Both the position numbers and the translations under genes were made by a program. The notes under the pieces were generated by a model that saw nothing but the letters and a program-made list of their open reading frames with translations, did no database searches and was not told the DNA's origin. Shown in pieces: positions 1 through 37,868 of a DNA stretch of 64,000 bases (position 1 is its first letter; each line of letters opens with the position of its first letter). The stretch spans positions 134,314,242-134,378,241 of the forward strand of contig NC_133123.1 in assembly GCF_033568475.1 (NCBI RefSeq), in the 5' to 3' direction. Source of the stretch: Henckelia pumila (Eukaryota; Streptophyta; Magnoliopsida; Lamiales; Gesneriaceae).

Positions 1-24
1 TTTCCAGTATCTTATCGCAAAGAC

Positions 25-646
25 ATGGGTGCTGAATTTTCCAATCTGAACCAGGGGAATTTAAATGTTGAAGAATATGTTGCACAGTTTTCTACCTTGC
101 TACGTTTTGCTCCACATGTTGCTGATAGTGATGAGGCAATGGCTGATCAGTTCATTAATGGACTGAATTCTGATGTGTTTACTTTGGTGAACACGGGGAG
201 ACCGAATACTTTTGCTGATGCGATTGATCAAGCAAAGGGAGCAGAGGCTGGATTACTTAGACAGCGGAGAACATCAATTGTCTCACAGCCACAACAATAA
301 GCTCAGTTTCAATCTCCATTCCCCAGATATGAGAGCGGAAGCAGCAACAATGGGAGGAAAAAAGTTTCTGAAAGCTCAAGGGAAACAGTTCAAGAAAACA
401 GAGAGTAGTTTCCCCAGTTCTAGTGGAAGACAGGTGAGTTCCAATTATACCGGTGTGTATTGTAATCGATGTGGAGGAAGACATCAGACTGAGCAATGCC
501 AAGGAGTCTCTGGTATTTGCAACATATGTCGTCAGCCAGGCCATTTCGCAAGAGTGTGTCCCCAGCGAGACTCTCAAAGATCACAAGGTATGGAGTCTTC
601 GAAATCTGAGACTCAGTCAGAAAGCCAAACCTCAGATGATGTTTAG
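25..646 (+). pseudogene. gag region of gypsy element A
   Basis: This encodes a retrotransposon gag core followed by a basic, Gln/Ser-rich linker and two CCHC-type zinc knuckles near the C-terminal side (CNRCGG... and CNICRQPGHFARVC). It belongs to the fossil element A and is part of a broken copy. Family assignment rests on the zinc knuckles, the gag core and the position upstream of a decayed pol. Confidence 0.75.
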
Positions 647-2783
647 CAGGTAATTGTTCTATTGCCTAGTTTTATATTGCGAGATACCTATCCTTCGCAT
701 ATGTTCTGTTTGAGCACTTTGTCATGTTGCCTGCATTACCTCTGAGCCATTATGTTCTGTAGTTGTGATCTCTTTACTTAGGAGGGGAGGTCTTATTTCT
801 GTCAGAGTTGTCAGGAAAGGTATACTACAGTTTGAAGGTAATGTGAGAGATAGAGACTGTATTGTGCTTGATTTGTCAGATTATGACTGAATTATCGGTT
901 TAGATATGTTAACCAAGTACAAGGATTTCGTAGATTGATTCAGAAAGTATGAGATTCAGAACTGAATTGATAAAAGGATGGGAATTCTACGATAAGAGTT
1001 TGAAATTTTGAATTTCTTTGATATCTATCTATCTATTTGTGAATTGATGATTACAGAAAGAGCAAGGGAATTCTTTATTATACAACAGATATGATGAAAG
1101 CTAGTCCAAAATTGACTAATCTATCAATGGTTAGGTAATTACTGATATGTTCCAGATGAAATTCTTGGATTACTTCCAGTCTGTGAGATGGACTTCGATA
1201 TGTAACTGATGTCAGGTATCTTATTGACTTTGAAAGTATCTTTTAGAATGGCACCAACAGAACTGCAAGAATTGAAAGAAATACAGACCAATGAGATTTT
1301 GGGCTAATGATCAGAAATTGAATAAGGCCACAATGATGACTTGCTATTGTTTGCCTTGACTAGCTGATTGATTTGAGCAGTTACAGAATTTATCGATTCT
1401 AACAGATGAGAAATGAATGCAGATGAGAAATGAATGCAGATGTGATAGAATTCTTGGTTCTAAAGCTTAGACTATCAATTAATTAGACTGAGCGAGATCA
1501 ATTGAATGCTTTATGAACATATTTGTAGTTCAGAATCGAAAGAAGATTAAATTCCGTTGAATTTTATTCTGAAAACTATCTATATTGGTATGAGATTGTG
1601 GTATCATATTTGATAGTTCTTAGAGATAGCATGATATGTTGTATTTGACGTTATACAATATGATGAAATAGCTAGAATCTATACAAGAAATGTTATTCCT
1701 TGCTATGAAAAATTTCCAAAAGGGTTTGCTTCTGGAATTGATATGACTCGATGATGTTGCAAAGATGTTGAAATCTAATGTGTCAGAGTACCATTTTGAG
1801 TTGTATGGTACTGATGCGCTATTGATCGTTTTGAGTTTGCGATTTACCTAAGTAGATTTCGACAAATAAACGAATATGCAATATTGGTTATGCTACGGAT
1901 AGGAGAAGATAGCTGTAAAAGAAGTTAATGACATGATGAGATGTCAGGAAGTATTAAAAATCTATTGTCGAGTTAGAGACTTTAGATTTATTTGATAGAC
2001 TGTGGCATCGATTGCCAGATATTTTTGAGTAATTGGTTGTATGTGATTTCATTCTACCATCCTCTTATCGATGGATTGTCTGAATTGACTATCCAAAAGT
2101 TGAGGAGATGCTCAGAATCCTAATACCTGATTTGGTATTAGCTGACTAATATTGCCACTTGGAGATGGTAATTTCTGGAACAGCTATCAGATTTTTTTTT
2201 ATGTGTCGCAATGAAGGTAGAGAACGAGAAGCTTTTTCAGAACAGAATGAAGATAGTTGATGATCGAGAAGCAAAACATACGCAGATTAGACACCGATTT
2301 TGTGCTTTGAACAGGGAGATTGAGTATGTTTGCAAATTCTTTGATTTCGAATGTATTGTTTGATTTAACAAGCGACGACTATTATCTCCGAGAATTGTTG
2401 AATCCGATGAAACTTCTGAAGAAGTAGGAAATCTTGTCTGTCGACTTTTATTTCCTCCATTTATATCTGATATTCGCGACATATTAGAATGAGACTGCTT
2501 ATGTACTTCAGTCAGATGAAATTAAGTTTGACGAGACATTAATCTATGTCGAGCAAATGATATGACTATTTGATGAGGAAGAAAAGCAACTCAGATTTGA
2601 ATCAGTGGATTCGTCGTAGAACTGAAGAAGTTATTGAGAAGATGAATCTGATATGAGACAGTGTTATTCTGAGTTATTCTCCTGATCTGAGTTCTTATTC
2701 AGTATTTCTCTTATTCCTTATCTTATGTGTGTATCGATTGCAAGAGATTTCGAGGACGAAATCCGATCTTAGAGGGGGAGAAT

Positions 2784-5375
2784 TGTAAGGCCCGGGATTA
2801 TTTGATTTAATCCAAAATTAATTAATTTTAATCCGAGTATATTTAATTTGAGAATTTTGGAGTTTTGAATTAAATTCTAATATTCTTAAATTATTTAGGA
2901 TTAAAATTAAATTAAAAAGATTTGCCGAGGACCGATTTGCAATTAAGCAAGACTTGAGGGGCCAAAGTGCAAATATGGAAAATTGACTTGGACACTTGTC
3001 TGAATATGAGTTTATACGTGTAGCATGTATGTATCTTCAGAATTATTATCTTCTTCAGCCAATAAATCGAAAACCTCAGCTCCAAGTCCATTCTCCATTT
3101 TAAAAACTTGATAACTTTTGCTTCGGTTGTCCGAATTCAATTCCGAAAAGAGTTCCGGACTCCTCGCAAGAAGGACTATCTATTGATGTAAGTATTGTAG
3201 AGATTTATTGTGTTTCGAAATTGAGTGATGGGGCAGGAATTAGAGTTGAGCATGATTATGAGTTCTTGAGCTTCTATGTTGATTATATCGACGGTAGATT
3301 GAAGAACGAGCGTGGTTTTCTTTCTATATAAATATCCAGCCATTATTTCGAAATTCTTACCATCTGATTATGTTGGTATATGTTATATTATTGCTGATAT
3401 GGTATGGTGATGAAGTTGATATGAATGTTAGAATTGATAGAAGTTAGTTTCGGTTACCGAGTTTGTACCGTTACTCCGCCGGTTTAGAATTTAAAACTGT
3501 TTTGATGGCTTATGATGGAATTGTGGATGAAGTGAGTTCTTGCTGATGTTATGAGTTATTTTTGCTGTGTTTTCAGTTTTGAAAACAGGGGGATCGAACT
3601 CAAACCTTCAGCTTCGAACCGGGATCGAATGGGGCCAAGATTTATGAAGTTGAGCCTTGAAAATCAAGTAGTGTTTGAGCAGATTTTTTATACAAGGTTA
3701 TGTTGTATGGCTTGACGAGATTTGGGAGCAGATTTTGATAGCCTTGAAGAGCTTGAAACCAAGACAAGAAAGGTATAAACCAACATCGAACCACGGGATA
3801 TATAACTCGAGTTAGATTGACTTGAGTTTCCCTAAACCACATACTTATTTGTTTCTTGTTGGAATTGATTTATTTTCAAGTCCATAGATATATGTTCTTG
3901 ATTGTTTAATTGATAGATGAATTGTATGAGATAGATGATGGCATAGATAGATAAGTCTATTGCCTTTCCTTGCTAGATTAGCTTGTCTCTTGTAGGTGGC
4001 TTAGATTAATGCTTCTAGAATTGGTTGCATCTTGATAAGCCACTAGATCTTAAAGAGTTGAAGGCGGATGTGCCATGTCTTAGGAAGGCAGATGTGCCAA
4101 ATTACCGAATGTTTGGACTTGTATCGATATGCGTAGGAGTAGATCGACTCCTATGACCAAAGATCGATATAGTGGACCAAAGTTTTTGAATAAGAACGTA
4201 CCGCCACCTCGAATGGGAGAGTAGGTGGGAGATTTGTTGCGTTCTTATTCAAACCGGGATCCCTAGATGAGAGTTGAGAAAATAGTCAAGTCTTGGTCTA
4301 GAGTTAAGACTAAGAGTCAAGATCAAGAAGTCATACAAAAACAAAAGTAGAGTCAAGACTAAGACACTACTTAGATTTGATAGATGACTTTGTGTGGCTG
4401 AATATGTTATGCTTTGAATATAGCATGTTTTTGTGCTACGCTTTGATTTATAGCATGCTTTTGTTATATGCTTTGAATTATAGCATGTATTGTGGTTCAT
4501 GAATATTTTTATGAATTAATTATGATAGTAATTACACTTGAACTTGATAGCATGCTATATGTTGCTTATACTGGGAAATGTATTTCTCACCGGAGATATC
4601 CGGCTGTTGTTGTGTTTGTATGTGTGCATGACAACAGGTAGTTCGGGATCAGGACAGAAGCGAGCATGAAGAACAGAGATTGAGAGTTAGAGTGGAGATC
4701 CGAGTTTAGATGTTCATTGTGCTGTCAATGTTTAGTGTAAACACTAGAGGCATGATTATGTTGTAGCTACCTTTGCCAAGACTTGTTGTACATGATTGAA
4801 TGGAAGTTCTTTGATGTAATATGTTGATATTGTATCTTAATCTCTCTTGCTTGATATAAGAGGTTAGTTTGAGCTTAACTTAGTAGCTTTGTCATGATTT
4901 TGTGCTACCAACTTATATTATGTTAAGTTTCATGCTAGAAATGATCTACAAGATAGAATGTGTATTGATACTAGCTTATGTGCATGTAAAGACTTGTATG
5001 AGTTGAAGCTAGATGATCAATGAGTGAAAGAACCTGTGTTGACAGCAAAATGGCATTTGTTGAGGTTTCTGGAAATGAGCCCGCTCGATCGGGTGATTAT
5101 CACCGATCGAGCGAGGCCCTTATATTGGAAACAGTGAGTGAGCATTTTGGGCTCGCTCGATCGGTGAAGATTAACCGATCGAGCGAGGCCAAAATATTTC
5201 CAACCCGAGAAGTTGGCTTCAGGGCTCGCTCGATCGGGTGTTTTTCACCGATCGAGCGAGGTGCTCTATTTAAAAAAAAAATTGTTTATTTTATTTAGTC
5301 TTTGATGATTGACTAATTATTATGATTATTTGGTTAATTGTATTGAAATGAGAGATTAGTACTCGGATCCTCACA
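2784..5375 (+). repeat. 3' LTR of gypsy element A (about 2.6 kb)
   Basis: It begins TGTAAGGCCCGGG directly after a G-rich polypurine tract and ends GGATCCTCACA. Blocks in its second half match the LTR of element B: a CACCTCGA...GAGTAGGT block near 4200 against one near 9040, and the block around 4570-4640 (TTCTCACCG...CAACAGG) against 9225-9297. The last 300 bp carry three CGATCG-containing hairpins. An LTR above 2 kb agrees with the Tekay/Del clade. No coding region is seen in it. Confidence 0.8.
5082..5258 (+). repeat. Three CGCTCGATCGG hairpins in LTR A
   Basis: Three inverted repeats lie at about 5082-5113, 5154-5185 and 5227-5258. Each has the arm CGCTCGATCGG, a 6-10 base AT-rich loop and the arm CCGATCGAGCG. 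Spacers between hairpins are 40-41 bp and are not repeats of each other. An A-rich run follows the last hairpin. The same design occurs in LTR B. Confidence 0.85.
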
Positions 5376-5376
5376 G

Positions 5377-7743
5377 TATCTTTCAGCGTTATTTAGATGA
5401 GTTCGTCATTATCTTTATCGATGATATTCTTATCTACTCAAAGAACCGTACTGACCATGCAGAGCACTTGAGGACCGTACTGCAGATTTTGCGAGTTGAG
5501 CAGTTGTTTGCCAAGTTGTCTAAGTGTGAATTTTGGTTGGATCGAGTTGTCTTCCTCGGTCACATCATTTTTGGAGATGGGATTTATGTCGATCCCAACA
5601 AGATTGAAGCGGTTATGAATTGGCCTAGACCGACATCAGTACCTGAGATCCAAAGCTTCATGGGTTTAGCTGGTTATTATCGCCGATTCATCGAGGGTTT
5701 CTCGTCTATTGCCAAGCCTATTACCCAGCTGACTCGGAAGAATGCGCCTTTGTCTGGACTTCAGATTGTGAGGCTAGTTTTGTTGATCTGAAGAGGAGAC
5801 TGACCAGCGCTCCGATTCTTTCTATTCCGAAGGGTACTGGAGGTTTCACAGTCTATTGTGATGCTTCTAACCAAGGCTTGGGTTGTGTTCTTATGCAGCA
5901 TAAGCATGTGATAGCGTATGCATCAAGGTAGCTGAAACCGCATGAGACTCGTTATCCGGTGCATGATCTGGAGCTAGATGCGATCGTTTTTGCTCTGAAG
6001 ATCTGGCGTCACTATCTTTATGGTGAGTCTTTCGAGATCTTTTCTGATCATAAGAGTCTTAAGTACTTGTTTTTGCAAGCAGAACTGAATATGAGACAGA
6101 GAAGATGGTTAGATCTCTTGAAGGATTTCGACTGTGAAATCAAGTATTATCCGGGAAAGTCTAATGCAGTTGCAGATGCCTTGAGCCGAAAGCTTTGTTC
6201 TCTATCTCTTTCGACTATCGGTGTTTCTCAGTTGATCGATGATTGTTGCACTTCTGGTTTAGAGTTTGAAACAGATAGAAAGACTATCAGAGTGTTTGCT
6301 ATTCAAGCCGAGCCGGAGTTGTTTGTTGCGATCATAGAAGCACAGAAGTCTGAGCCGAGCATTCAGGTTTCAGTAGAGAAAGTCAGATCTGGGCATCAGT
6401 CTGAATTCCAGGTTAGAGATGATGTTTTGTTTGTGAATAACCGTATTGTTGTGCCTGATATTTCGGAGTTGAGACAGCGTATTCTCCGAGAGGCTCATTG
6501 CAGTCGGTTCAGTGTTTATCCTGGAGGTCGTAAATTGTACAACGATCTGAAGAACCAGTTCTGGTGGAAGAGAATGAAGAGCGATGTTGTGAGGTTTGTA
6601 TCTCGGTGTTTGAACTGTCAGCAAGTGAAAGCAGAACGGAAGCGACCGGGTGGTCTATTGCACAATCTATCTATTCCTAAATGGAAATGGGATCATATTT
6701 CTATGGATTTCGTCACGAAGCTATCGCGATCTGTTCGGAGATGCGATGCTATTTGGGTAATGATCGACCGATTGATGAAGTTTGCATGTTTTATTCCGTA
6801 CAGGATGATGTATCGTCACGATCAGATGGCTGAGTTGTATGCTAGCAATGTTGTGAGATTGCATGGGGTGCCGAAGTCGATCGTTTCAGACAGAGACCCT
6901 AGATTCACTTCACACTTCTGGCACAGTTTGCAGGAGGCACTTGGTACTCGATTGCATCTGAGTACATCTTATCATCCTCAGACCGATGGACAGTCAGAGC
7001 GGACTATCCAGACGTTAGAGGATATGCTTCGAGCAGTAGTGCTAGACTTTGGCACTAGTTGGCAGGATTCTTTGCCTCTTGTTGAGTTTTCTTACAACAA
7101 CAGCTTCCAAGCGAGTATCGGTATGGCGCCTTTTGAGACATTGTACGGTAAGAAATGCCGATCTCCGTTGTTTTGGGATGATTTTTCCGAGTCACCAGAT
7201 TTGGGACCGGATATGCTTAGAGATATGGCAGAGCAAGTTAAGATCATTCAGACCAGAATGAAGTCAGCTCAAGATAGACAGGCGAAGTATGCGAATGTCA
7301 GACGTAGACCTCTGAGTTTCGAGCAGGGAGACCGTGTATTCCTTAAGATTTCTCCGTTCAGAGGCACTGTCAGATTCGGTAAGAGAGGGAAGTTATCTCC
7401 GAGATTCATCGGTTCGTATGAGATTCTCGAGAAGTTAGGCGATCTTGCCTACAGACTTGCACTTCCTCCGTCTTTATCTGGTATTCACGACGTTTTTCAC
7501 GTCTCTGTGCTGCAAAATTATCATCCAGATCCTTCTCATATCCTTCAGCCTGACGAAGCCGAGTTAGATGAGACTCTGAGCTACTTTGAACGACCGATTC
7601 AGATCCTTGATCGAAAAGAGAAACAGCTTAAAACCAAGTTGATTCCATTGATGACAGTGCAGTGGAGCCGTCACGGCGTCGAGGAAGCAACTTGGGAGAC
7701 AGAATCTGACGTGAGACAGCGATTTCCCGAGTTATTCGGATGA
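5377..7743 (+). pseudogene. pol region (RT, RNase H, integrase, chromodomain) of gypsy element B
   Basis: The order RT - RNase H - integrase is diagnostic of Ty3/gypsy. Recognisable blocks are the RT aspartates (FIDDIL), the RNase H start ([19 protein letters not shown]), the integrase zinc finger (HCSR...CLNCQQVK), the integrase core (SVSDRDPRF-like, then [14 protein letters not shown]) and a tail with [12 protein letters not shown] typical of a chromodomain. The chromodomain and the long LTR place it in the Tekay/Del chromoviruses. It is a broken copy with a few breaks. Confidence 0.85.
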
Positions 7744-7841
7744 CGTAAGTTCTTCTTACTGTCTTTAGTTATTTATTCTTTCTTATGAGTTGTGGTTCTC
7801 GTTGATTTCGAGGACGAAATCTCTTCTTAGTGGGGGAGAAT

Positions 7842-9924
7842 TGTAACGCCCCATTTTTATCTTAAATGAGTTTATTGGAGTTAATCGGAGATTGCAGAGT
7901 TCAAGAGCCGACTTGATTTTGATCAGGGTCCTCTTTGCAAAATTTGGATTTTTCAGGGACTAAAACGCAATTATCGGTTTTTATAGATATTTATAAGGCT
8001 TTTGGACCCATTCTCTTCTCCATCACCCCTATTGCATCGCCTCCCTCCATTGAAGACGATTATTTGAGCCTCCAAGCTTTCTGAATTCAGTCCGAACTCG
8101 ATCCGGCTGTTGGAATTTATTTCTGAAGGCAGATTATCGATCACTGCAGCGAGAGCTCCGTTATATCGTAAGTTTTTCTACGATCAGATACATTCTAGTT
8201 TTTGGATGTTGTTAGAATCGTTTGAGATTTGAGTATGTTGTTATCGACGGAGTTCTGATCGTTTATTATTTGTCGATTTTGAAATAGAGCGTCGTTCGGA
8301 TTTGTTATGATTTTTGGAAAGCCATTTTCGAAAATGTGGGTTTTGAGATTTTTTGGACTTGCCTTGTTATGGTAGTTTTAGCTTTGATTCGTATTGATAT
8401 CGGTATTGAACTGCTATCTGCGTTTCCGGTTTGTTCAGTTTATAGCCGTTATGCCGTCGGTTTGAGTTTTGAGATTTTGAACCATTTGAGTTGTTGTACT
8501 TTGGGCTTTGAGTTGTTCGATGTTGTTGATCATCTTTTGTATCTGAACAGTTTCGTTTAGAGTTGTCAAGCCCGGAGTTAGCAGCATTGGTCGTCGAGAT
8601 TTGGACGAAGAACGGTAAAGAGATTTACCTTGAACCGCAGTTGTTGTTTAGATTGTTTAGTGTTTGATACAATCTTTTGGTTGTAGCTTATCCAGAGTTG
8701 GAACTACTGCATTGAAAGGTAAAAGTAGTCATCGTTAGCGGGATAGCATACTCGGGACAGTTGGTTCTCGAGTTTCCCTTTCAAATCACATACTTGCATC
8801 AATACTTGTTCTAGCATGTGGAACTCGTATTTTGTCAATTGATTGATTTTTTATTATGTGGCTTATGTTTATATTTTGTTATGCATTCATCTTGAGCCAA
8901 CTTTGATTTCAGCGGGCAGAACCGCCCTTTTTGTTTAGACGTTTAGAAACTATGATTGAGTGGTCTAGGTCGTAGACATCTCTCCTGGTGCTAGCATACT
9001 CATTATAGTTGCTCAAAGTCTAGGGGAGTGGGATACGTGGCACCACCTCGATTGGTAGAGTCGGTGAGTCGTTACGTGATCTCATCCTCGGGATCCCAAA
9101 AGCACAGCATCAATCCCTCGTTTATCAGAATTGATATCTCGTTTTAAAGACATGCATTTCATTACGTTGATATCGATTATGTGTTGCCTTGATAGCATGT
9201 TGTTTATATATTACTTTTATGTTGCTTTTACTGGAAATGTCATTCTCACCGTTTATCCGGTTGTTGCTTTGTTTTGTATGTGTACTTGGCAACAGGTGGG
9301 GCAGGATCAAGCCAGCGTAGGCCTGGATAACAACAAGAGGGAGAGCTAGTAGTGAGACTCGGTTTAGAAGTCGTGCCAGCATGTCTACCTAGTGATATTG
9401 GAACATGTTTAGATATCGAACTTCGTTGTTATGTTGTATTGATTATGCGAGCTTTTGTTTAAACTTTGTCGTTGCATATTCCATAACTTTGAGCGGTTCA
9501 GCAGCCCTAAAACGTTATGTATTAATTGGAAAAAGTTTGATTGCAATGCATGGATTTGAATTGATTGTTTGGAGTTGAGTTTCAGCTAGTTTTCTACTGT
9601 TCTTTTTCTCTGATTCTGTCACCGCTCGATCGGCAAGATATTACCGATCGAGCGATGGCAATTTACGCCTTTCTCTGTTTTTGCATTTAGTTGACCACTC
9701 GATCGGTAAGATCTTATCGATCGAGCGGCGCTGGTTTTACTCGAGCAGAGAACGAGTAATTTTTGGCTCGCTCGATCGGTAGGATCTTACCGATCGAGCG
9801 GAGCACTGTTCACTTCAAAAAAAAAAAGAAATTTTTTTTTTCTTTTATTGATTTTAATCTTGGATCTTGATTGTCTTATTGTTGTTTAATCCCGAAATTA
9901 GTTGTTTAGAACCGAGGTCTCACA
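7842..9924 (+). repeat. 3' LTR of gypsy element B (about 2.1 kb)
   Basis: It starts TGTAACGCCCC after the G-rich tract TGGGGGAGAAT and ends GGTCTCACA. Directly after it the sequence turns into leucyl-tRNA synthetase coding sequence on the minus strand. Several blocks are shared with LTR A, so A and B are sister subfamilies. Three hairpins sit in the last 300 bp. Confidence 0.85.
9623..9800 (+). repeat. Three CGCTCGATCGG hairpins in LTR B
   Basis: Inverted repeats lie at about 9623-9654, 9696-9728 and 9769-9800, with arms matching CGCTCGATCGG / CCGATCGAGCG (the middle one slightly diverged) and loops holding AAGATATTA- or AGGATCTTA-like bases. Number, spacing and position near the LTR end match LTR A, although the sequence between the hairpins differs. 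Confidence 0.85.
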
Positions 9925-10204
9925 GGTATGATCTCGAATGGATCCACCCATCCGTCCTTCACACCGTGCTTGGCTCTTAATCCTGGCTTCGCTTTCAAAT
10001 CACGGAGGGCCATGTAGTCATCCGGAGAATCACTAGGAACACTAGCAACAATTCCTGTGCCCATGTTCATGAGAACCGTCGACATGGGCAAAGCATATAT
10101 AGTATCATAAAACGCTAAAGGGGATTTTAAAGCAAGACCAATTAGATCTCGACCAGTCAACTCAACCAAACAAGTTGGCTTCTCTGGAAAACGGGACAGC
10201 TTTT
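9925..10204 (-). pseudogene. Leucyl-tRNA synthetase, cytosolic: editing-domain exon piece between two retrotransposons
   Basis: On the minus strand this encodes about 92 residues of the CP1 editing domain of cytosolic leucyl-tRNA synthetase, with LTGRDLIGLALKSP, then GTGIVASVPSDSPDDY and VDPFEIIP. It continues in frame with the piece at 15222-16247 once the copia element and one copy of its CTTTT target duplication are set aside. At 9925 the coding sequence stops at the end of gypsy LTR B. The rest of the editing domain, the KMSKS loop and the anticodon-binding domain are not in the window. The coding sequence itself shows no decay, so the interruption is recent. This copy cannot make a normal enzyme, so a working copy elsewhere (or another allele) is expected. 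Confidence 0.9.
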
Positions 10205-10666
10205 TGTTGGGTTTGAATAGTCAAATGGTAGGTGTCAATTGGTGGCAGCAAGTGTTGGAAAATGAGACAACACTCATTACACTTGTGCGTACAAAAATGA
10301 AGGGAAATTCAATTGAGAATTTTCCTTCACATTTATAACCGAGAGATTGCACCTATAAATAGGTGCATTCTCTTGGAATGAAAAGCATCCTATCTCAAGT
10401 TCATTTCTCTGATTCTTGAGTTCTTCTCTTTTCCTAATTAATTCTATATATATTTGTGAGATAGGTTTTCTCCTGTATTAAGAGAGTGAGTGTCTCTTTG
10501 GAAACACAGAGAGAGGTTGTAATTCTCCAAATATTATAGTGAAATCTTTTGGTCTTGCCCGTGGTTTTTACCCTAATATTTTTGGGGGTTTTCCACGTAA
10601 ATCTTGGTGTCTATTTTATTTAATTTCCATAGTTTCTATCTCGTGATGCCGCACCTGGGACCAACA
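10205..10666 (+). repeat. 5' LTR of the copia element
   Basis: The 462-bp LTR runs from TGTTGGGTTTGAATAG to GGGACCAACA. It contains a TATA-like box CTATAAATAG at about 10352-10361, likely the element's promoter. It is nearly identical to the LTR at 14775-15221. Confidence 0.95.
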
Positions 10667-10717
10667 AATGGTATCAGAGCCTTGGCATAAAATTTCTTAA
10701 AATTTTGAGTATGCTCT

Positions 10718-13700
10718 GTGGTTGTAGCTGTGACTGATCTTCCACATCAGAAAAGATTTTTTGAAGATTTTATAAGGCAGGATTATTGTAGTCAAGATGA
10801 CGGCAAAATACGAGATAGAAAAGTTCAATGGGAGAAATTTTTGCTGTGGAAATTGAAGGTGCAAGCAATTCTAACAAAGGAGCGTTTCTTGGCAGCTATT
10901 GGAGATAGACCGGCGGATGTCATGGACGATCAAAAGTGGAATGAGATGAATCACAATGTTGTTGCCAATTTGCACTTGGCGATAGCGGATGAAGTTTTGT
11001 CAAGTATCTCGGAAATAAAAAGCGCAAGAGTTATTTGGGATACTCTGACAAAATTGTACGAGGTCAAGTCACTACACAATAAGATTTTCCTAAAGAGAAA
11101 GCTTTATACTCTTCGGATGGCGGAATCCTCATCGATGACCAACCATATCAATACACTGAATACTCTATTTTCCCGGCTCACGTCTATGGGGCATAAAATA
11201 GAGGAAAAAGAACGTGCGGAGCTTCTACTTCAAAGTCTACCAGATTCATACGATCAGCTCATCATCAATGTTACCAACAATGTTCTTTCGGATAATTTAA
11301 ATTTTGACGACGTCTTAACTGCGGTTCTTGGAGAAGAGAGTCGTCGAAGGAACAAGGAAGATAGGTTGGCAACGTCGAAGCAAGCAGAGGCTTTACCAAT
11401 GACGAGAGGAAGATTGACGGAGCGTGACTCCAGTGGGAGCCACAGATATGGTAGATCAAAGTCAAGAAGTAAGAAGAAGAATATTTACTGTTTTAAATGT
11501 GGCGGTAAAGGGCACTTCAAGAGAGAGTGTACGAAGAGCATCGAAAAGGGATCTCAAGGAAATGTGGCCAGTACTTCAGGAAGTGGTGAAATATTATTCA
11601 GCGAAGCAGCAACGGTTGTGGAAGGCAGACACAAATTTTGTGATGCATGGATTATGGATTCAGGAGCGACGTGGCATATGACGTCAAGGAGAGAATGGTT
11701 CGACCAGTATGAACCAGTCTCAGGAGGATCTGTATTCATGGGAAACGATCATGCCTTGGAAATCGCTGGGGTTGGTACCATTAAAATCAAAATGTTTGAT
11801 GGTACTATTCGCACCATACAGGAGGTACGACATGTGAAGGGCCTGACAAAAAATCTTTTGTCTTTGGGGCAATTGGATGATATTGGGTGCAAAACTCGTA
11901 TTGAGAAAGGGATCATAAAAATTGTGAAAGGCGCGTTTGTGGTTATGAAGGCGAAAAAGGTTGCTGCAAATCTGTATGTATTGTTGGGGAAAACACACAA
12001 AGAGGCGGAACTAGCTGTTGCATCAATTGGTTCGGGAGAAGAATCAACAGTGTTGTGGCATAGAAAGCTTGGACATATGTCAGAACGAGGAATGAAGATT
12101 CTCTCAGAACGAAAGCTGTTGCCAGGGCTTACAAAAGTGATTCTACCCTTTTGTGAGCATTGTGTTACCAGTAAACAACACAGATTGAAGTTTGGCACAT
12201 CTACTGCCAAAAGCAAAGGCATATTGGAGCTGATTCATTCTGATGTTTGGCAAGCACCGGTGGTGTCCCTAGGAAGAGCGAGATACATTGTCTCGTTTAT
12301 TGATGATTTCTCTAGGAGATGTTGGGTGTATCCAATCAAGAAGAAGTCAGATGTTTTCGAAGTCTTCAAAGTTTTCAAAGCGCGGGTTGAACTTGATTCT
12401 GATAAGAAAATCAAGTGTTTGAGGACTGACAATGGAGGAGAATATACCAGTGATGAATTTGATGCATTCTGTCAGCATGAGGGCATCAAAAGACAGTTCA
12501 CGACGGCTTACACGCCTCAGCAGAATGGAGTGGCGGAGCGGATGAACATAACGTTTTTGGACCAAACAAGGGTCATGTTGAGTACTGCGGGTCTACCAAA
12601 GTCATTTTGGGCAGAAGCAGTCAAAACCGCTTCTTATATCATCAATCGTTCTCCTTCAGTGGCGATTGATTTGAAGACTCCAATGGAGGTGTGGACTGGC
12701 AAGCCAGCTAATTATTCTCGGTTACATACATTTGGAAGTCCGGTGTACGTGTTGTACAATGAACAAGAAAGATCAAAGTTGGATTCCAAATCCAGAAAGT
12801 GTATCTTCTTGGGCTATGCTGATGGAGTAAAGGGGTTTCGCTTGTGGGATCCTACTGTCCACAAGCTTATCATCAGCAGAGATGTTATCTTCGAGGAAGA
12901 TAAAGTGAAGGGAGACAAAGGCACACTGAATTCAAAAACTACTATCATTCAGGTGGAAAACAAGACAGACGAAGATCAAGTTTCTTGTGAAGCAGTACCA
13001 GAGCACGAGGAACAAGAACCAGTTGAGTCAGAGGTTTCCAAAGTGAGGCAGTCAACTCGAGAGAGAAGACCACCAGGTTGGCTTTCAGATTATGTCACTG
13101 AAAGCAACATTGCATATTGTCTATTAACAGAGGATGGTGAGCCATCGAGTTTCCATGAGGCTACTCAAAGCTCGGATGTATCCCTGTGGATGACAGCGAT
13201 GCAGGAAGAATTGGAAGCATTGGACAGGAACAAAACTTGGGATCTTGTTACACTACCACGAGGGAGGAAAGCTATCGGTAACAGATGGGTCTATAAGATC
13301 AAGCGTGATGGCAATAACCAAGTGGAGCGGTATCGTGCAAGATTGGTTGTCAAAGGGTATGCTCAGAAAGAAGGAATTGACTTCAATGAGATATTTTCTC
13401 CTGTGGTTCGGCTTTCAACAGTCAGGATAGTATTAGCAATGTGTGCGGTGTTTGACCTACATCTAGAACAGCTAGATGTGAAAACGGCATTTCTTCATGG
13501 CGATCTTGAAGAAGAAATTTATATGCTCCAGCCAGAAGGTTTTGCAGAAAAAGGCAAAGATAACTTGGTTTGCAGGTTGAAAAAATCTCTGTACGGTCTC
13601 AAACAGGCACCGAGGTGTTGGTACAAGAGATTTGATTCCTATATCATGAGCCTTGGGTACAACAGACTCAGTGCAGACCCTTGTACGTATTTCAAGAGGT

Positions 13701-14698
13701 CTGATGATGATGATTATATCATTTTGCTGTTGTACGTGGACGACATGTTGGTAGCAGGCCCCAACAAAGATCGGGTCCAAGAATTGAAGGCACAGTTGGC
13801 TAGGGAATTTGATATGAAGGATTTGGGACCAGCAAACAAGATTCTAGGGATGCAAGTTCACCGAGACAGAAGTAAAAGGAAGATTTGGCTTTTCCAGAAA
13901 AATTATTTGAAGAAAGTCTTGCAGCGCTTCAACATGCAAGATAGTAAGCCAGTTTCAACCCCTCTTCCTATTAACTTCAAGTTATCTTCTGAGATGTGTC
14001 CTAGCAGTGAAGCAGAGAAGATGGAGATGTCTCGAGTATCGTATGCATCAGCAGTGGGAAGTTTAATGTTCGCTATGATTTGTACTAGACCAGACATTGC
14101 ACAAGCAGTGGGAGCAGTCAGTCGGTATATGGCGAATCCTGGACAAGAGCATTGGAGCACGGTTAAGAGGATCCTTAGATATATTAAGGGTACCTCGGAT
14201 GCTGCATTATGTTTTGGAGGATCTGATTTTACACTCAGGGGCTATGTGGATTCAGACTACGCAGGTGATCCAGATAAGAGAAAATCTACTACTGGTTATG
14301 TGTTTACAGTTGCAGGAGGTGCAGTCAGCTGGATTTCAAAACTGCAAACAGTTGTGGCATTATCTACAACGGAGGCAGAATACATGGCAGCTACTCAAGC
14401 TTGCAAAGAGGCAATATGGATTAAAAGGTTATTGGAGGAGCTTGGGCACAAACAAGAAAAGATTCCTCTGTTTTGTGACAGTCAGAGTGCCTTGCACATT
14501 GCAAGGAATCCAGCCTTTCATTCCAGGACTAAACACATTGGAGTACAATTTCACTTTGTACGGGAAGTAGTAGAGGAAGAAAGTGTGGACATGCTGAAGA
14601 TCCATACGAAGGATAACTTAGCTGATTTTCTGACCAAGCCAGTGAATAATGATAAGTTCGAATGGTGTAGATCCTCAAATGGCCTAGCAGAAACGTAA
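10718..14698 (+). CDS. gag-pol polyprotein of the Ty1/copia element
   Basis: A single long frame of about 1,326 codons carries, in order, a UBN2-type gag domain, a CCHC zinc knuckle (CFKCGGKGHFKREC), an aspartic protease (DSGATWHM), a GAG-pre-integrase segment (LWHRKLGHMS), an integrase core (HSDVWQ..., then TDNGGEYTS and TPQQNGVAERMN), a reverse transcriptase (RARLVVKGYAQKEGIDF, YVDDM) and RNase H (YVDSDYAGD, STTEAEYMA, DSQSA). Integrase before RT is diagnostic of Ty1/copia. Wording throughout resembles the tobacco Tnt1/Tork group. It is described here as part of an old-virus-like element; whether it is expressed cannot be told from sequence. Confidence 0.9.
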   Translation: MVVAVTDLPHQKRFFEDFIRQDYCSQDDGKIRDRKVQWEKFLLWKLKVQAILTKERFLAAIGDRPADVMDDQKWNEMNHNVVANLHLAIADEVLSSISEIKSARVIWDTLTKLYEVKSLHNKIFLKRKLYTLRMAESSSMTNHINTLNTLFSRLTSMGHKIEEKERAELLLQSLPDSYDQLIINVTNNVLSDNLNFDDVLTAVLGEESRRRNKEDRLATSKQAEALPMTRGRLTERDSSGSHRYGRSKSRSKKKNIYCFKCGGKGHFKRECTKSIEKGSQGNVASTSGSGEILFSEAATVVEGRHKFCDAWIMDSGATWHMTSRREWFDQYEPVSGGSVFMGNDHALEIAGVGTIKIKMFDGTIRTIQEVRHVKGLTKNLLSLGQLDDIGCKTRIEKGIIKIVKGAFVVMKAKKVAANLYVLLGKTHKEAELAVASIGSGEESTVLWHRKLGHMSERGMKILSERKLLPGLTKVILPFCEHCVTSKQHRLKFGTSTAKSKGILELIHSDVWQAPVVSLGRARYIVSFIDDFSRRCWVYPIKKKSDVFEVFKVFKARVELDSDKKIKCLRTDNGGEYTSDEFDAFCQHEGIKRQFTTAYTPQQNGVAERMNITFLDQTRVMLSTAGLPKSFWAEAVKTASYIINRSPSVAIDLKTPMEVWTGKPANYSRLHTFGSPVYVLYNEQERSKLDSKSRKCIFLGYADGVKGFRLWDPTVHKLIISRDVIFEEDKVKGDKGTLNSKTTIIQVENKTDEDQVSCEAVPEHEEQEPVESEVSKVRQSTRERRPPGWLSDYVTESNIAYCLLTEDGEPSSFHEATQSSDVSLWMTAMQEELEALDRNKTWDLVTLPRGRKAIGNRWVYKIKRDGNNQVERYRARLVVKGYAQKEGIDFNEIFSPVVRLSTVRIVLAMCAVFDLHLEQLDVKTAFLHGDLEEEIYMLQPEGFAEKGKDNLVCRLKKSLYGLKQAPRCWYKRFDSYIMSLGYNRLSADPCTYFKRSDDDDYIILLLYVDDMLVAGPNKDRVQELKAQLAREFDMKDLGPANKILGMQVHRDRSKRKIWLFQKNYLKKVLQRFNMQDSKPVSTPLPINFKLSSEMCPSSEAEKMEMSRVSYASAVGSLMFAMICTRPDIAQAVGAVSRYMANPGQEHWSTVKRILRYIKGTSDAALCFGGSDFTLRGYVDSDYAGDPDKRKSTTGYVFTVAGGAVSWISKLQTVVALSTTEAEYMAATQACKEAIWIKRLLEELGHKQEKIPLFCDSQSALHIARNPAFHSRTKHIGVQFHFVREVVEEESVDMLKIHTKDNLADFLTKPVNNDKFEWCRSSNGLAET

Positions 14699-14774
14699 GC
14701 AGCAGGAAATGGCAAGATTGAAAGGACGTGTGGAGACGTGTTTGATTCTCAATCAAATCTCCAAGTGGGAGAAA

Positions 14775-15221
14775 TGTTGGGTTTGAATAGTCAAATGGTA
14801 GGTGGCAATTGGTGGCAGCAAGTGTTGGAAAATGAGACAACACTCATTACACTTGTGCGTACAAAAATGAAGGAAAATACTTCACATTTATAACCGAGAG
14901 ATTGCACCTATAAATAGGTGCATTCTCTTGGAATGAAAAGCATCCTATCTCAAGTTCATTTCTCTGATTCTTGAGTTCTTCTCTTTTCCTAATTAATTCT
15001 ATATATATTTGTGAGATAGGTTTTCTCATGTATTAAGAGAGTGAGTGTCTCTTTGGAAACACAGAGAGAGGTTGTAATTCTCCAAATATTATAGTGAAAT
15101 CTTTTGGTCTTGCCCGTGGTTTTTACCCTAATATTTTTGGGGGTTTTCCACGTAAATCTTGGTGTCTATTTTATTTAATTTCCATAGTTTCTATCTCGTG
15201 ATGCCGCACCTGGGACCAACA
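14775..15221 (+). repeat. 3' LTR of the copia element
   Basis: The 447-bp LTR nearly duplicates 10205-10666, with the same ends (TGTTGGG ... CCAACA). The target duplication CTTTT follows at once (15222-15226), and then leucyl-tRNA synthetase coding sequence resumes on the minus strand. Confidence 0.95.
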
Positions 15222-16247
15222 CTTTTGATACGCCAAATTTAGAGCAGCCCTTCTTGTTAAGATGAACACTTGAGTGTCATCGATTTCAAAAGCTCCATAC
15301 TTTCCATCAGGCAATACCCAACAATTGGTTTGGCCATACATAGTTTCTGGTCTCAATGTAGCGGCTGCAAGGTACACCTTCTTTCCCTCCAAAACACTCA
15401 TCTTGGAAGGGAAAGGTGTGATGACTTCCATTTTTATGAGAGTGTATTCCTGCGGGCGAACATTTTCCCCCGAAGCCCGATCATGATCCGCACATGGTTG
15501 GCCATCCAAAGGTGAATATATAGTATATTTCAAGTCTTTAACAATCTTACCCATTGCTTTCAGTTTCCTCATTTGCCACCGCACAAACGAATCGAAATGT
15601 GGATTCATTTCAGTTGTGATAAATGAGCGCCTCCAATCACATCCTAGCCCAAAAGCCTTCAAGTCCTCTACTGCCAGTGGAGGAAAAATGGTCAGCCAAT
15701 GATACGGATCCGTGAACTTTGCTATCTCCTCATTAGACAAACCATAACTCTGCATTATCTCCCATTGGTACTTGATACCACCAGATTTAGCCGCAGTTTT
15801 TGATTTCTTACCTCTAAAACTACCACCTGGTTGAGATAGATTCCCTTCCCTTTCACCCTCTGGCTCACCTCTTTCTTCCTCTCTTACAATTGGAAAATTG
15901 GGTGGGCTTCCAAACATATGAATCTCCCTGGAAAGCTTATCAGCTGATGCCTTGATAGGCATCCCGGTACAATGAAAAGCAAAAGGCAAGAGCACGTTTA
16001 CTCCCCTCAATCTATGATAGGCGGCAGCAAATTCAAGTTTCGATAAAGAAAAGGCATGACCCAAATGGAGATAACCATTCATATACGGGGACGGGAAGTT
16101 GCCAAAGAACTTTTCGCCTGGCTTGGGTGGCGAGTCCATTGCATCGGCCCGAAACACATCACCATCTTCCCACCACTTCTGCACTTGTGACTCAATTTCT
16201 AGAAGCCTATCCCTCGGAGCAAAGCTTTTTCCTGTTTCTTCTGCCAT
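15222..16247 (-). pseudogene. Leucyl-tRNA synthetase, cytosolic: N-terminal exon, interrupted by a copia element
   Basis: Reading on the minus strand from the ATG at 16247, 342 codons encode the N-terminus of a class I leucyl-tRNA synthetase of the plant cytosolic type. Visible are NFPSPYMNGYLHLGHAFSLSK with the ATP-binding HIGH-type motif HLGH at residues 61-64, CTGMPIKASADKL, and the start of the CP1 editing domain with TLRPETMYGQTN from about residue 297. The ATG after a 5' UTR intron is chosen because the codons upstream show no homology. The enzyme charges tRNA-Leu in the cytosol, and the full family length is about 1,090 aa. The frame is undamaged up to the copia target duplication, then resumes at 10199. 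The gene is therefore an intact sequence split by insertions, not an old pseudogene. Confidence 0.92.
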
Positions 16248-16830
16248 ATTGTCACCAGCAGTCGTACAAAAGCTGGGGTGAGGAGAAAAATAAAAGTAAG
16301 TGGGATACAAAGAAATTGTCTGAACCGATTACTCGATACATCTGCTACTACGTTGATACGAATCCTATATGAAGTTTTTGTGAATCACTAACATAATATA
16401 CATATCGAAGTTGGTCAAATACAGAAGGCACAAATCATAAACTCAATTAAGCTCACGGTTTCTTCAACTGATATTTGTATTCACAAGCTGCGGCTTTTAA
16501 ACAAATACCAAAACTAACATGTAAGTCGTTGTTTTTCAGCTAAATAACAACAAAATCTTAGTCAACTGACACATAAAAAACGATTAGAAACTGACCCAGA
16601 ATCAACTTCAACACCTGATTCTCCAAATCATAAACCAACATGATAAAGCAAACCAAAATAAAATCTTTCTATAAAGCCACAGAACAGAAAACATACCTTA
16701 GTTTGTTGAAATTGAATACTGGAATTGCTGCCAGAATATCAACCTGATGAGCAGCAGCAGCGATGAGTCTCCGTAAACTAGAAGATGCCACAGATTGTAA
16801 GAAGCGATATCTAGGAAAAATGAAAGTTTC
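16248..16830 (-). promoter_or_regulatory. 5' UTR and UTR intron of the leucyl-tRNA synthetase gene
   Basis: A short UTR stretch (16248-16272) is preceded on the minus strand by CCTCACCCCAG, a good acceptor. A donor AAG/GTATGT lies at 16697/16696, so a UTR intron of about 424 bp is inferred (16273-16696). The upstream exon, beginning somewhere above 16697 and possibly near 16830, contains no ATG on the minus strand. The 5' end is not determined. Confidence 0.6.
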
Positions 16831-21137: not shown

Positions 21138-21251
21138 ATAATAAGCTCACATTCAACCTTTGACTGACTACACCTCACCACCGCCATTAATAATTTCTTT
21201 AAAATTCAGCAAAACCAGTAAACAGAGAGGCGGAGCTGATAAGGTACAGCT

Positions 21252-22929
<1,678 letters not shown>

Positions 22930-33007: not shown

Positions 33008-36000
33008 TCATTCTTTTATTTGAGCAATACATGCAGCATTATCTTCATACAGCGTCACATGATTCTTGTTTACTGATAATCCACAAGAAGTTTGGATATG
33101 TTGTGTCATTGATTTTAGCCAAACACATTCACGGCTTGCTTCATGTAGCGCAATAATCTCGGCGTGATTTGATGAAATTGTTACTAGTGTTTGTTTCTGT
33201 GAACGCCAAGAAATTGTTGTGCCTCCACGAGTAAATACATATCCGGTTTGGGAACGTGGTTTTATGTGGATCAGATAAATATCCAGCATCATCATAACCA
33301 ATGATACTTTGATTGGTGTCTTTTGAGTACAAAAGTCTCAAATCAGTCGTTTCTCGTAGATAACGGAATATATGTTTAATTCCATTCCAGTGCCTCTTTG
33401 TTGGATATGAACTGAATCTTGCTAATAAATTTACAGCAAAAGATATATCAGGTCTAGTGCAATTTGCAAGATACATAAGGGCACCAATGGCACTTAGATA
33501 TGGTACTTTTTGACCAAGAATAACTTCATCATCTTCACATGGACGAAATGGATCCTTTTCTATGTTTAATGATCTTACAACCATTGGAGTACTTAATGAA
33601 TTTGATTTATCCATATTAAAACGTTTAAGGATCTTTTATGTATAATTTGCCTGGTGAACAAAAATTCCACATTTTTTTTGTTCAATTTGCAAACCCAAGC
33701 AATACTTGGTTTTCCCAAGATCCTTCATTTCGAATTCTTCTTTCAAGTATAACATCTTGAATTTCTTTATTCGTTCCAATGATATTTAAATCATCAACAT
33801 ATACAGCAATAATTACACATCTGGATGTTGTTTTCTTGATGAAAACACAAGGGCATATTGGATCATTTACATATCCTTTTTCATCAAGTGCTCACTTAGC
33901 CGATTATACCACATTCGGTCAGATTGCCTCAACCCATATAATGATCTTTGCAATTTTATAGAATAAAATTCTCTGGGTTTTGAACTTTTGTGCTTCAGAC
34001 ATCTTAAATCCTTCAGGGATTTTCATGTATATATCACTATCAAGTGATCCATATAAGTAAGCTGTAACAACATCCATAAGACACATTTTCAAATTTTCAG
34101 GCACGACCAAACTAATCAAATATCGAAACGTAATTGCATCCATAACAGGAGAATACGTTTCTTCATAATCAATTCCAGACCTTTAAGAAAAACCTTGTGC
34201 AACAAGTCTAGCTTTAGATCTTGCTATTTCATTTTTCTCATTTCGCTTTCGAATAAAAACCCATCTGTATCCAACAGGTTTTACACCTTTAGGTGTGAGG
34301 ACTATAGGTCCAAAACATTACGTTTATTTAGCGAATCCAATTCAACCTGGATGACATCTTTTCATTTGGCCCAATCATGACGAATTTTACATTCACCAAA
34401 AGATTTTGGTTCATGATCCTCATTTTCATTTATGATGTCACATGTCACATTATAACAAAATATCTCATCAATATCTTCTATATCTTTTCGGTTCCATATT
34501 TTTTCAGTATTAATATAATTGATAGAGATTTCACGATTCTTGTCAGTTTGTGGTTCTGACAGAATATTTTCATCATTAGGTGTTTCTTCTGGAACACCAT
34601 TTTCTATTTTATGATCATCGTGTTTCTCTATTCCTTTTCTTTTTCGAGGATTTTTATCCTTGGAACCGACTGGCCTTCCACGCTTCAAGCATTTTATGAC
34701 ATCATGAGTGTCTTCAATTTGTTTTTTTTGAATTTCAATTCGAGCAGGGGCATTTACAGCATGTATATATGATTTTGTTACCCCTTTTGTGTCTGCAAAT
34801 GCATCTGGCATTTGATTTGCAATTCTTTGCAAGTGTACAATTTGTTGTACATTTTTCTCACATTGTTTGGTTCTTGGATCCAAATGTAACAATGATGGTA
34901 CATACCATGTGATTTTCTTTTCGTTGTGTTTCTTTTCTCCCCCTAACATTGGGAAGATTTCTTCATTAAAATGACAATCAGCACGTGCTGTAAACACATC
35001 GCCTGTCTGAGGCTCAAGATATCGAATGATTGATGGGCTATCATAACCGATATAAATACCGATTTTTCTTTGAGGACCCATTTTTGATCGTAGAGGTGGT
35101 GCAATAGGCACATACACCATACATCCAAAAATTTTTAGATGAGAAATATTTGGTTCTTTACCAAATGCAAGTTGCAATGGGGAGAATTTATGATATGCAA
35201 TTGGTCTGATGCGAATTAATGCCGCAGCATGTAAAATTTCATGTCCCCATATAGAAATAGGGAGTTTTGTTCTCATAATCATTGGTCTAGCAATCAGTTG
35301 TAGACGTTTAATCAATGATTCAGCTAATCCATTATGTGTATGAACATGAGCAACAGGATATTCAACAGTAATTCCCATTGACATACAATAGTCATTGAAA
35401 GTTTGGGAAGTAAATTCTCCAGCATTATCAAGTCTTATTTTCTTGATTGTATTATCGGGAAATTGATTCCGCAATTTTATTATTTGAGCCATTAATCTTG
35501 CAAATGCCTCATTCCGAGTTGACAATAAGCATACATGTGACCATCTACTGGAGGCATCGATCAATACCATAAAATATCGAAATGGTCCACATGGTGGATG
35601 AATTGGCCCACAAATATCACCCTGAATACGTTCAAGAAATATGAGTGATTCTGCTTGGATTTTAGTTGGTGATGGTCTTATAATAAGTTTTCCAAGAGAA
35701 CATGCTTTACATTGAAACTTATTATTCTGAAAGATCTTCTGGTCTTTCAATGGATGACCATGTGTATTTTCAATAATTCTTCGCATCATTATTGAACCAG
35801 GATGTCCCAATCGATCATGCCAATTGGTTAATATTGAAGAATTATTAACCACCATATTTGATTCGATTGACCTTATATGTGTATAATGCAATCCAGTAGG
35901 GAGCATTGATAATTTTTCAACCACATATTTCTTTCCTGATTTATATGTGGTAAGACACATATATTTCTGATTTCCATCAGTTATCGTCTCAGTATCATAT

Positions 36001-36344
36001 CCATGAGAATATATGTCATTAAAACTCAACAAATTTTTTTTCGATTGTGGTGAATATAAAACATCATTTATCCGAAATTTTGTACCATTTGGTAACAAAA
36101 ATTGTGCTTTACCACAACCTTCAATCAAGCCTACAGGACCTGATATGGTATTCACCATTGTTTTTGTTGGTTTTATTTCCATGAAATATTTTTCTTCTCG
36201 CAGAATAGTGTGCGTTGTACCACTATCCGATATACAAATTTCCATGATATTATTTTCATATTTTCTCATAGCATTTTCCATATCAAACTTCACAAAAATG
36301 CAATAAAGAAAAATTAAGTACAATACAAATGCAAAATATAACAT
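33008..36344 (-). pseudogene. pol region (protease, integrase, RT, RNase H) of the SVR1-AMI1 copia element
   Basis: Read on the minus strand the parts appear in the order protease (SDSGTTHTIL), GAG-pre-integrase (NWHDRLGHPGS), integrase core (GDICGPIHPP, then RLDNAGEFTSQ), RT fragments (DVVTAYLYGSLDSDIYMKIPEGF), and RNase H with a KPRSQTGYVF-like motif near 33250. This is a Ty1/copia order. It is a broken copy with several breaks. Confidence 0.85.
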
Positions 36345-36406
36345 GCTTTATAATACAAGAATGCATGAAAAATACAAATTTGTTACAATCTAGTCCCACC
36401 AATCTT

Positions 36407-37288
36407 TTAATCAATGTCTTCGAAATCATTCAAAAAATCTGCAGCATTGAAACTAGTTGAACCAATTAAATGGTCATTATTTTCAATAAAATTGGTATCT
36501 TTTCTTTTCCCCTTTGTCGATTCTTTATAGAGCTTACATAGGTGCTCAGGGGTTCGACAAATATGTGACCAATGTCCTGGAGTGCCACATCTATAACAAA
36601 CACTCTCAGATCTTTTTAAGTGATTTTCATTTTCACTCGTATTTTCATGCTGCCTTTTTGGTGGGTGGTTCGTGAAGTTCTTTTGAGATGAGTTATTGAA
36701 ATAACTATCTCGATTATTTTCATATCCATGGCCACGACCACGACCGCGATAATTTTTACGTTCACGTCCACGCCCACTTCCTCGACCTCGTCCACGACCA
36801 AAATATTGTCTATGCCTTTGATTTTGGTTTTCATTTTTAATTACGACATTTGCTTCTAGAAATGCCGTTGAACCAGTGGGTCGAGATTGATGATTTTTTA
36901 CTAACAATTCGTTGTTCTTTTCCGCCACAAGAAGACATGCGATGAGTTCAGAATATCTCAAAAATCCACACACTCTATACTGTTGTTGTAGAGTTATATT
37001 TGATGCGTGGAATGTGGAAAATATTTTTTCAAGCATTTCCATCTCAATAACAACATGCCCACAAAATTTCAATTGCGAGACTATTCGATACATCGCAGAA
37101 TTGTAATCACTGACTTTTTTAAAGTCTTGGAATCTCAACGTATTCCATTCATCACGGGCGGTCGGGAGTATAACTTCCCTTATATGCTCAAATCTTTCTT
37201 TCAGCCCTTTCCATAAAATCACTGGGTCTTTTTCTGTGAGATACTCATATTTCAATCCTTCATCAAGATGTCTACGTAAGAAAATCAT
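36407..37288 (-). pseudogene. gag region of the SVR1-AMI1 copia element
   Basis: A UBN2-type gag domain (KDPVILWKGLKERFEH...) is followed by an Arg/Gly-rich stretch (GRGRGRGSGRGRERKNYRGR) and a zinc knuckle CYRCGTPGHWSHIC. It belongs to the fossil element on the minus strand. Confidence 0.85.
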
Positions 37289-37868
37289 AGACTTTGTCTT
37301 TTCTTGTGAGGATGATATATTATTTTATTTGATGGTATCACTTAGACCCAATGACTCAAGATGCATCTCTACATCGAGAGTCCATGACATATAATTCTTT
37401 CCAGTGATATCGAGCGCAACGAATTCAATCTTTGCCAAATTTGACATGGTGGTACTAGAAAAATAACAATGTATTTTATTAGTTAATTTTTATTAGTACG
37501 ACAATACAAAATAATGGAATAACGAAGATTACAAGTGTGTGTACAAATAAAAAAAAAGTATGTGGTGGAAAATCGCTGGTGAGTACAAGACTCGTGAGCA
37601 TGATGATCATAGTCGTTATGAAAAATAGTCTTATAAATGCCATCATCTTCATCTTCGAAAAATCGAGGAGAAATTATTTAGAGAGAAAGAGTGAATTTGG
37701 TGTGATTGAAAATGAGTTTGAGTGAACATATTTATAGGGCAAAAACTAGTCGTTTGTTACCGTTGGGGGTAAGAAAAAATCGAGTTGTGTTGAATAAAAA
37801 TTTGTGATAATTATGTGATGCATATAATGATAATCATAATTAAATATACGCAATAAAATATATATCAT

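Follow-up and report, generated by a model that had tools for sequence, protein, structure and literature searches.

A duplicate cytosolic-type leucyl-tRNA synthetase gene of Henckelia pumila, probably long selected and recently broken in place by transposon insertions

We analyzed a stretch of 64,000 nucleotides (the window) from Henckelia pumila, namely positions 134314242-134378241 of contig NC_133123.1 (hereafter C4), which carries the beginning of a gene for leucyl-tRNA synthetase (LeuRS) whose coding exon is interrupted by mobile elements. A first-pass annotation of these letters had described the exon as hit twice by retrotransposons and as otherwise undamaged. To place the gene, we compared it with its flanks on C4 and with the genome of the plant (884.7 Mb in 133 contigs), in which an unbroken paralog was found on another contig, C2. 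Two pieces of the exon, A and B, lie within the window; they are separated by a Ty1/copia element, and piece B adjoins the end of a Ty3/gypsy element that holds a second long terminal repeat (LTR) element (Table 1).

Table 1. The broken LeuRS gene on C4 and the elements inserted in it (positions are those of the window unless a contig is named; UTR, untranslated region)
Feature	Position	Strand	Remarks
LeuRS piece A, codons 1-342 from ATG	15222..16247	-	open frame; 300/342 residues identical to C2 paralog
LeuRS piece B, editing-domain region	9925..10204	-	91 whole codons at 9927-10199, all open
LeuRS frame running on into copia LTR	15171..15221	-	16 more codons, then stop
Predicted 5' UTR intron of broken LeuRS gene	16273..16696	-	GTATG...CAG, 424 bp
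Ty1/copia element, 5017 bp	10205..15221	+	LTRs 10205-10666 and 14775-15221; gag, integrase, RVT_2 domains
Copia target-site duplication, left copy	10200..10204		CTTTT
Copia target-site duplication, right copy	15222..15226		CTTTT
Outer Ty3/gypsy element, right part	1..9924	+	whole = C4:134306174-134324165; 3' LTR 7842-9924
Gypsy target-site duplication, right copy	9925..9929		GGTAT
Second LTR element nested in gypsy, right part	1..5375	+	whole = C4:134310769-134319616; 3' LTR 2784-5375
CACTA-ended DNA transposon, 21,140 bp	C4:134284458-134305597, left of window		CACTA/TAGTG ends, CTT 3-bp duplication, dense subterminal repeats

Piece A, the first five bases of whose range are the copia target duplication, is 87.7% identical to the C2 paralog at the amino acid level over its 342 codons (84% at the DNA level), and piece B stands in register with codons 347-437 of the same paralog, sharing 69 of 91 residues (75.8%). 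Since identities of this order extend over 342 and 91 codons, a chance match of the two pieces is excluded, and the earlier claim that they keep frame and motifs stands: the 342 codons of A and the 91 of B are open and in register, and the HIGH-type motif survives in piece A as HLGH ("HIGH-type" and "KMSKS" being the customary names of the LeuRS signatures). The 5' UTR, which had been called splice-ready, also proved to have a counterpart, as a UTR intron is predicted in the same arrangement in the C2 paralog, with matching donor and acceptor contexts before its ATG and a much shorter length of ~83 bp. A spliced C4 transcript, as predicted from these contexts, could encode at most the 358 residues of the open frame that runs from the ATG and includes the codons contributed by the copia LTR.

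When piece A was used as a genome query, two matches were obtained among the best candidates scored, its own locus and C2:105835819-105836856. The latter belongs to an intact LeuRS gene (C2:105833602-105836856), which consists of a single coding exon of 1085 amino acids with no inner stop. Its protein carries the catalytic, anticodon-binding and RBD_LARS1 domains of Pfam, retains both the HIGH-type and the KMSKS signatures, and scored 1186 bits (residues 7-1061) against the PDB chains named 'Leucine--tRNA ligase, cytoplasmic', compared with 497 and 492 bits against chains that we take to be of the archaeal type and 47-53 bits against chains of 877-880 residues, presumably of the bacterial type. 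By these Pfam and PDB matches, which set the enzyme class, the C2 gene is a eukaryotic cytosolic (LARS1-type) LeuRS and not a bacterial one. From the premise, also general knowledge, that cytosolic LeuRS is essential, the first-pass annotation had required that the broken copy be backed by a working paralog or by another allele. The second full-length gene that it proposed to look for is the one on C2, which at least looks functional; neither a second assembled allele nor a further LeuRS gene appeared among the best candidates that were scored in the genome. The C2 gene is presumably expressed and sufficient, providing the enzyme.

With the C2 protein as the genome query, five matches were obtained, one to the C2 gene itself and the others to four collinear minus-strand pieces on C4 that extend from C4:134283138 to 134330488 (~47 kb). 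By DNA alignment these pieces cover bases 1-1038, 1039-1313 and 1314-1884 of the C2 coding sequence and the remainder up to its natural end, meaning that in outline the whole gene, start codon included, is still present on C4; the third and fourth pieces (C and D) sit to the left of the window. Seen at this length the gene is split by three insertions rather than two, i.e., the copia element, the gypsy element with its nested LTR element, and a DNA transposon with CACTA ends. Likewise, "otherwise undamaged" holds for the two pieces in the window, yet not for the gene as a whole: piece C has a TGA stop where the C2 protein has W593, and piece D has lost 21 bp, in frame, from the KMSKS loop, such that KMS stays and the following seven residues are missing. 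Of the two signatures expected of a working enzyme, the C4 copy consequently keeps HLGH and has its KMSKS cut. Beyond the loop, a further stretch of 36 bp is absent from piece D. At the protein level the two copies differ in length at five places, all of them frame-keeping (C4 -4, -7, -12, +1 and +1 residues). Toward the 3' end of piece D, the DNA alignment further shows two single-base gaps of opposite sense; as the protein alignment is gapless there, they reflect either an alignment error or a pair of changes that compensate each other.

The junctions of the copia element with the exon are exactly those first described, with the 5-bp duplication on both sides. Its two LTRs (462 and 447 bp) differ by four substitutions over 447 bases and one 15-bp indel (Kimura two-parameter distance, K2P, 0.0090), and between them lies an open frame of 1329 codons with the gag, integrase and RVT_2 domains. 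The LTR pair, the target duplication and the position of the integrase ahead of the reverse transcriptase identify a Ty1/copia element. By eye, the likely gag ATG (10797) lies in a different frame, which closes after 19 residues. A genome query with the LTR gave at least 40 scored matches, these being the best 40 of 609 candidates.

The adjoining gypsy end was also placed correctly, as the 3' LTR stops at the last base before piece B and the right target copy begins with the next one. The left target copy, GGTGT, differs from it by one mismatch and lies at C4:134306169-134306173, left of the window. The gypsy LTRs show 59 differences over 2073 bases and two indels (K2P 0.0291). Domains scoring above the Pfam cut-offs were gag, protease, reverse transcriptase, RNase H and integrase zinc-binding; the integrase core and chromo matches fell below them. 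Along the element, the reverse transcriptase (RVT, L014:2695-3792) is followed by the nested element and then by the integrase open reading frame (ORF) at 5932-7743 of the window, an order that, with the LTR pair and target duplication, characterizes Ty3/gypsy elements. The nested LTR element is flanked by a duplication of GTATC, and its LTRs differ at 44 of 2586 bases (K2P 0.0172). Palindromic CGCTCGATCGG...CCGATCGAGCG motifs recur in the LTRs of two different LTR elements (5076-5271 and 9617-9813 of the window).

The third insert has the ends, 3-bp duplication and subterminal repeats of CACTA (EnSpm) transposons. Its right end gave 126 matches in the genome: 15 terminate precisely with the final base of the insert (base 598 of the query), two continue to base 599 and three, the locus itself not counted, to base 601. 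Its ORFs include DUF1985, an Ulp1 protease and a MULE transposase; a CACTA transposase domain was not found in the six ORFs scanned, and inverted repeats marking a MULE inside the 21-kb insert were looked for without success. These mixed hallmarks may reflect either a MULE nested in a CACTA element or one captured by it.

We then compared the two LeuRS copies for signs of selection. Over 1060 codons, synonymous divergence (Ks) was 0.726 and nonsynonymous divergence (Ka) 0.106, giving a ratio of 0.145 (bootstrap 0.12-0.18); by piece, Ka/Ks was 0.106 for A, 0.256 for B (confidence interval, CI, 0.14-0.46), 0.137 for C and 0.158 for D. A relative-rate test was performed with the cytoplasmic LeuRS from the PDB (solved chain 6lpf), presumably the human enzyme, as outgroup; among prokaryote contigs an outgroup LeuRS was sought and nothing was confirmed. 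At the 194 residues that differ between the copies, the outgroup agrees with C2 at 50 and with C4 at 34; it matches neither copy at 96 and lacks a corresponding residue at 14. The surplus of changes assigned to C4 (50 vs 34) is not significant (p=0.10). The C4 copy contains a single stop in 1061 codons, against an expectation under neutrality of 1.8 over the time that the gypsy LTRs record, or of 12 if the branch length is taken as 0.1. CG loss is expected after lengthy silencing by methylation; such decay was not seen in the broken copy, which has 109 CG dinucleotides against 79 in C2. Taking the Ka/Ks ratio, the rate test, the single stop and the retained CG together, we conclude that the C4 copy probably spent most of its existence under selection and that its death was probably recent, at around the time when the elements inserted. 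A long-dead pseudogene is ruled out by the Ka/Ks ratio and the stop count. Assuming 1.3e-8 and 7e-9 substitutions per site per year, the LTRs date the copia element to 0.35-0.64 million years (My), the gypsy element to 1.1-2.1 My and the inner LTR element to 0.66-1.2 My.

Taken together, these results suggest, with a probability that we put at about 90%, that the C4 gene is a non-processed duplicate that was kept for long under selection and then killed recently, in place, by transposon insertions. The duplication of a cytosolic-type plant LeuRS gene would be ancient and would have occurred at the DNA level, both copies retaining the 5' UTR intron, and purifying selection would have acted on both through most of the time since. 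Three classes of transposon would then have entered the single coding exon of the C4 copy in recent times, with the gypsy element later receiving another LTR element, while the C2 copy, its frame intact, presumably supplied the enzyme. Three features of a duplicated pseudogene are present, namely a functional-looking paralog, a retained intron structure (as predicted from the splice contexts) and a disrupted frame. A retrocopy origin was considered and ruled out, because the UTR intron layout is common to both copies. We infer that no enzyme is produced from the C4 copy, and that it was the insertions, and not the stop or the deletion, that killed it.

Several points weigh against this account. 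Both the stop and the deletion in the KMSKS loop may be older than the insertions, in which case the gene was perhaps already dying when it was hit. The relative-rate test, which is weak as its outgroup is distant, leans toward more change on C4. The CACTA-ended insert has no clock, and the time of its arrival is presumed. Finally, when ORFs of at least 40 amino acids were compared between ~69 kb of C4 and 72.5 kb of C2, no shared neighbor gene was evident besides LeuRS at the two loci (~70 kb each); the other matches were copia-type ORFs, a 1.9-kb repeat (once in C4, twice in C2) and one 150-bp DNA match.

The alternative that survives best departs from the proposed history in the order of events only: by the time the transposons came, the C4 copy may already have been dead or have become a LeuRS relative without catalytic activity, its KMSKS loop cut, and the insertions would merely have followed relaxed constraint. 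The in-frame loop deletion and the TGA for W593, the slightly larger number of changes assigned to C4 and the raised Ka/Ks of piece B are all consistent with this order; the overall Ka/Ks, the single stop and the otherwise open frame speak against a long dead period, and we regard it as possible, though on the doubtful side. Also conceivable, if improbable, is that the C4 gene was a second LeuRS with a separate, long-selected role (e.g., mitochondrial supply, or a non-catalytic one) that was recently lost through the transposons; were this true, individuals or sister species with an unbroken gene may survive. It is quite unlikely that the insertions are confined to one haplotype, or are an assembly artefact, and that an intact allele exists at C4, as the first-pass annotation had allowed: the young copia LTRs are compatible with a polymorphic insertion, yet the junctions have consistent target duplications and LTR pairs, 18 stretches of sequence are free of any N, and the genome query returned no further LeuRS gene among the best candidates scored. 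Least likely of all, a truncated, partly functional protein of 358 residues would still be expressed from the surviving ATG and UTR intron, which the low Ka/Ks of piece A, the lowest of the four, might seem to favor, but the copia element is too young (K2P 0.009) for that constraint to postdate its insertion, and the piece has neither the KMSKS loop nor the anticodon-binding part and is missing most of the editing part.

The event itself is of a known kind, an ordinary route of duplicate-gene loss and ordinary decay in a repeat-rich genome. Like other non-processed plant pseudogenes broken by transposons, the C4 copy has an intact paralog, a preserved exon and UTR-intron layout, a split frame and target duplications; it is unlike the usual case in that three transposon classes share one coding exon with little other decay. 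With cytosolic LeuRS (LARS1 type, 6lpf) the likeness lies in the domains of the C2 gene and in the four C4 pieces that match it, and the difference in the interruption of the C4 copy and its cut KMSKS loop. The retroelements resemble Ty1/copia and Ty3/gypsy in their LTR pairs, 5-bp duplications and domain sets, whereas the DNA transposon resembles CACTA elements in its ends, 3-bp duplication and subterminal repeats and differs in its Ulp1, DUF1985 and MULE-transposase ORFs. No literature naming such a broken LeuRS copy was found in a search not aimed at the locus itself. What the locus offers is a well-resolved recent loss of a duplicate housekeeping gene, in which transposon clocks bracket the death and the intact C2 paralog allows the constraint before it to be measured. 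In Yu et al. 2020, on the loss of plant duplicates, pseudogenes are described as rare or transient (PMC7775554), and on that account an early-stage case is useful, though not new in kind. A spare cytosolic LeuRS is in itself unsurprising, since the cytosolic aminoacyl-tRNA synthetase families of angiosperms exceed the organellar ones in size (by 30% in the 13 species that have whole genomes; PMC10098043). According to the same paper, the cytosolic LeuRS of Arabidopsis is localized to mitochondria as well.

Three neighboring genes of the C4 copy, encoding a protease-type exon, an ABC transporter exon and a small protein, were searched for in the genome, and none had a match beside the C2 gene (C2:105.8 Mb). 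The small protein had no second match in the genome. The ABC transporter exons (ABC_tran, ABC2_membrane_7) lie on the plus strand at 53444-56671 of the window; their first exon has a relative at C4:43.19 Mb (67%), and on C2 its two best matches, each of 56%, are at 108.05 and 139.8 Mb. The protease-type exon, also on the plus strand (21243-21806), contains an I29 propeptide domain and is likely the first exon of a gene for a cysteine protease of the papain type; its best-scoring relative elsewhere is only 45% identical. A second copia-type element, broken, occupies 33141-37324 on the minus strand, with a zinc knuckle, weak gag and integrase matches and interrupted frames. Outside the window, at C4:134265062 and C4:134275548 (L009 and L010), two similar small ORFs, candidates for self-incompatibility S1-type proteins, lie within a 0.9-kb duplicated stretch of 82% identity.

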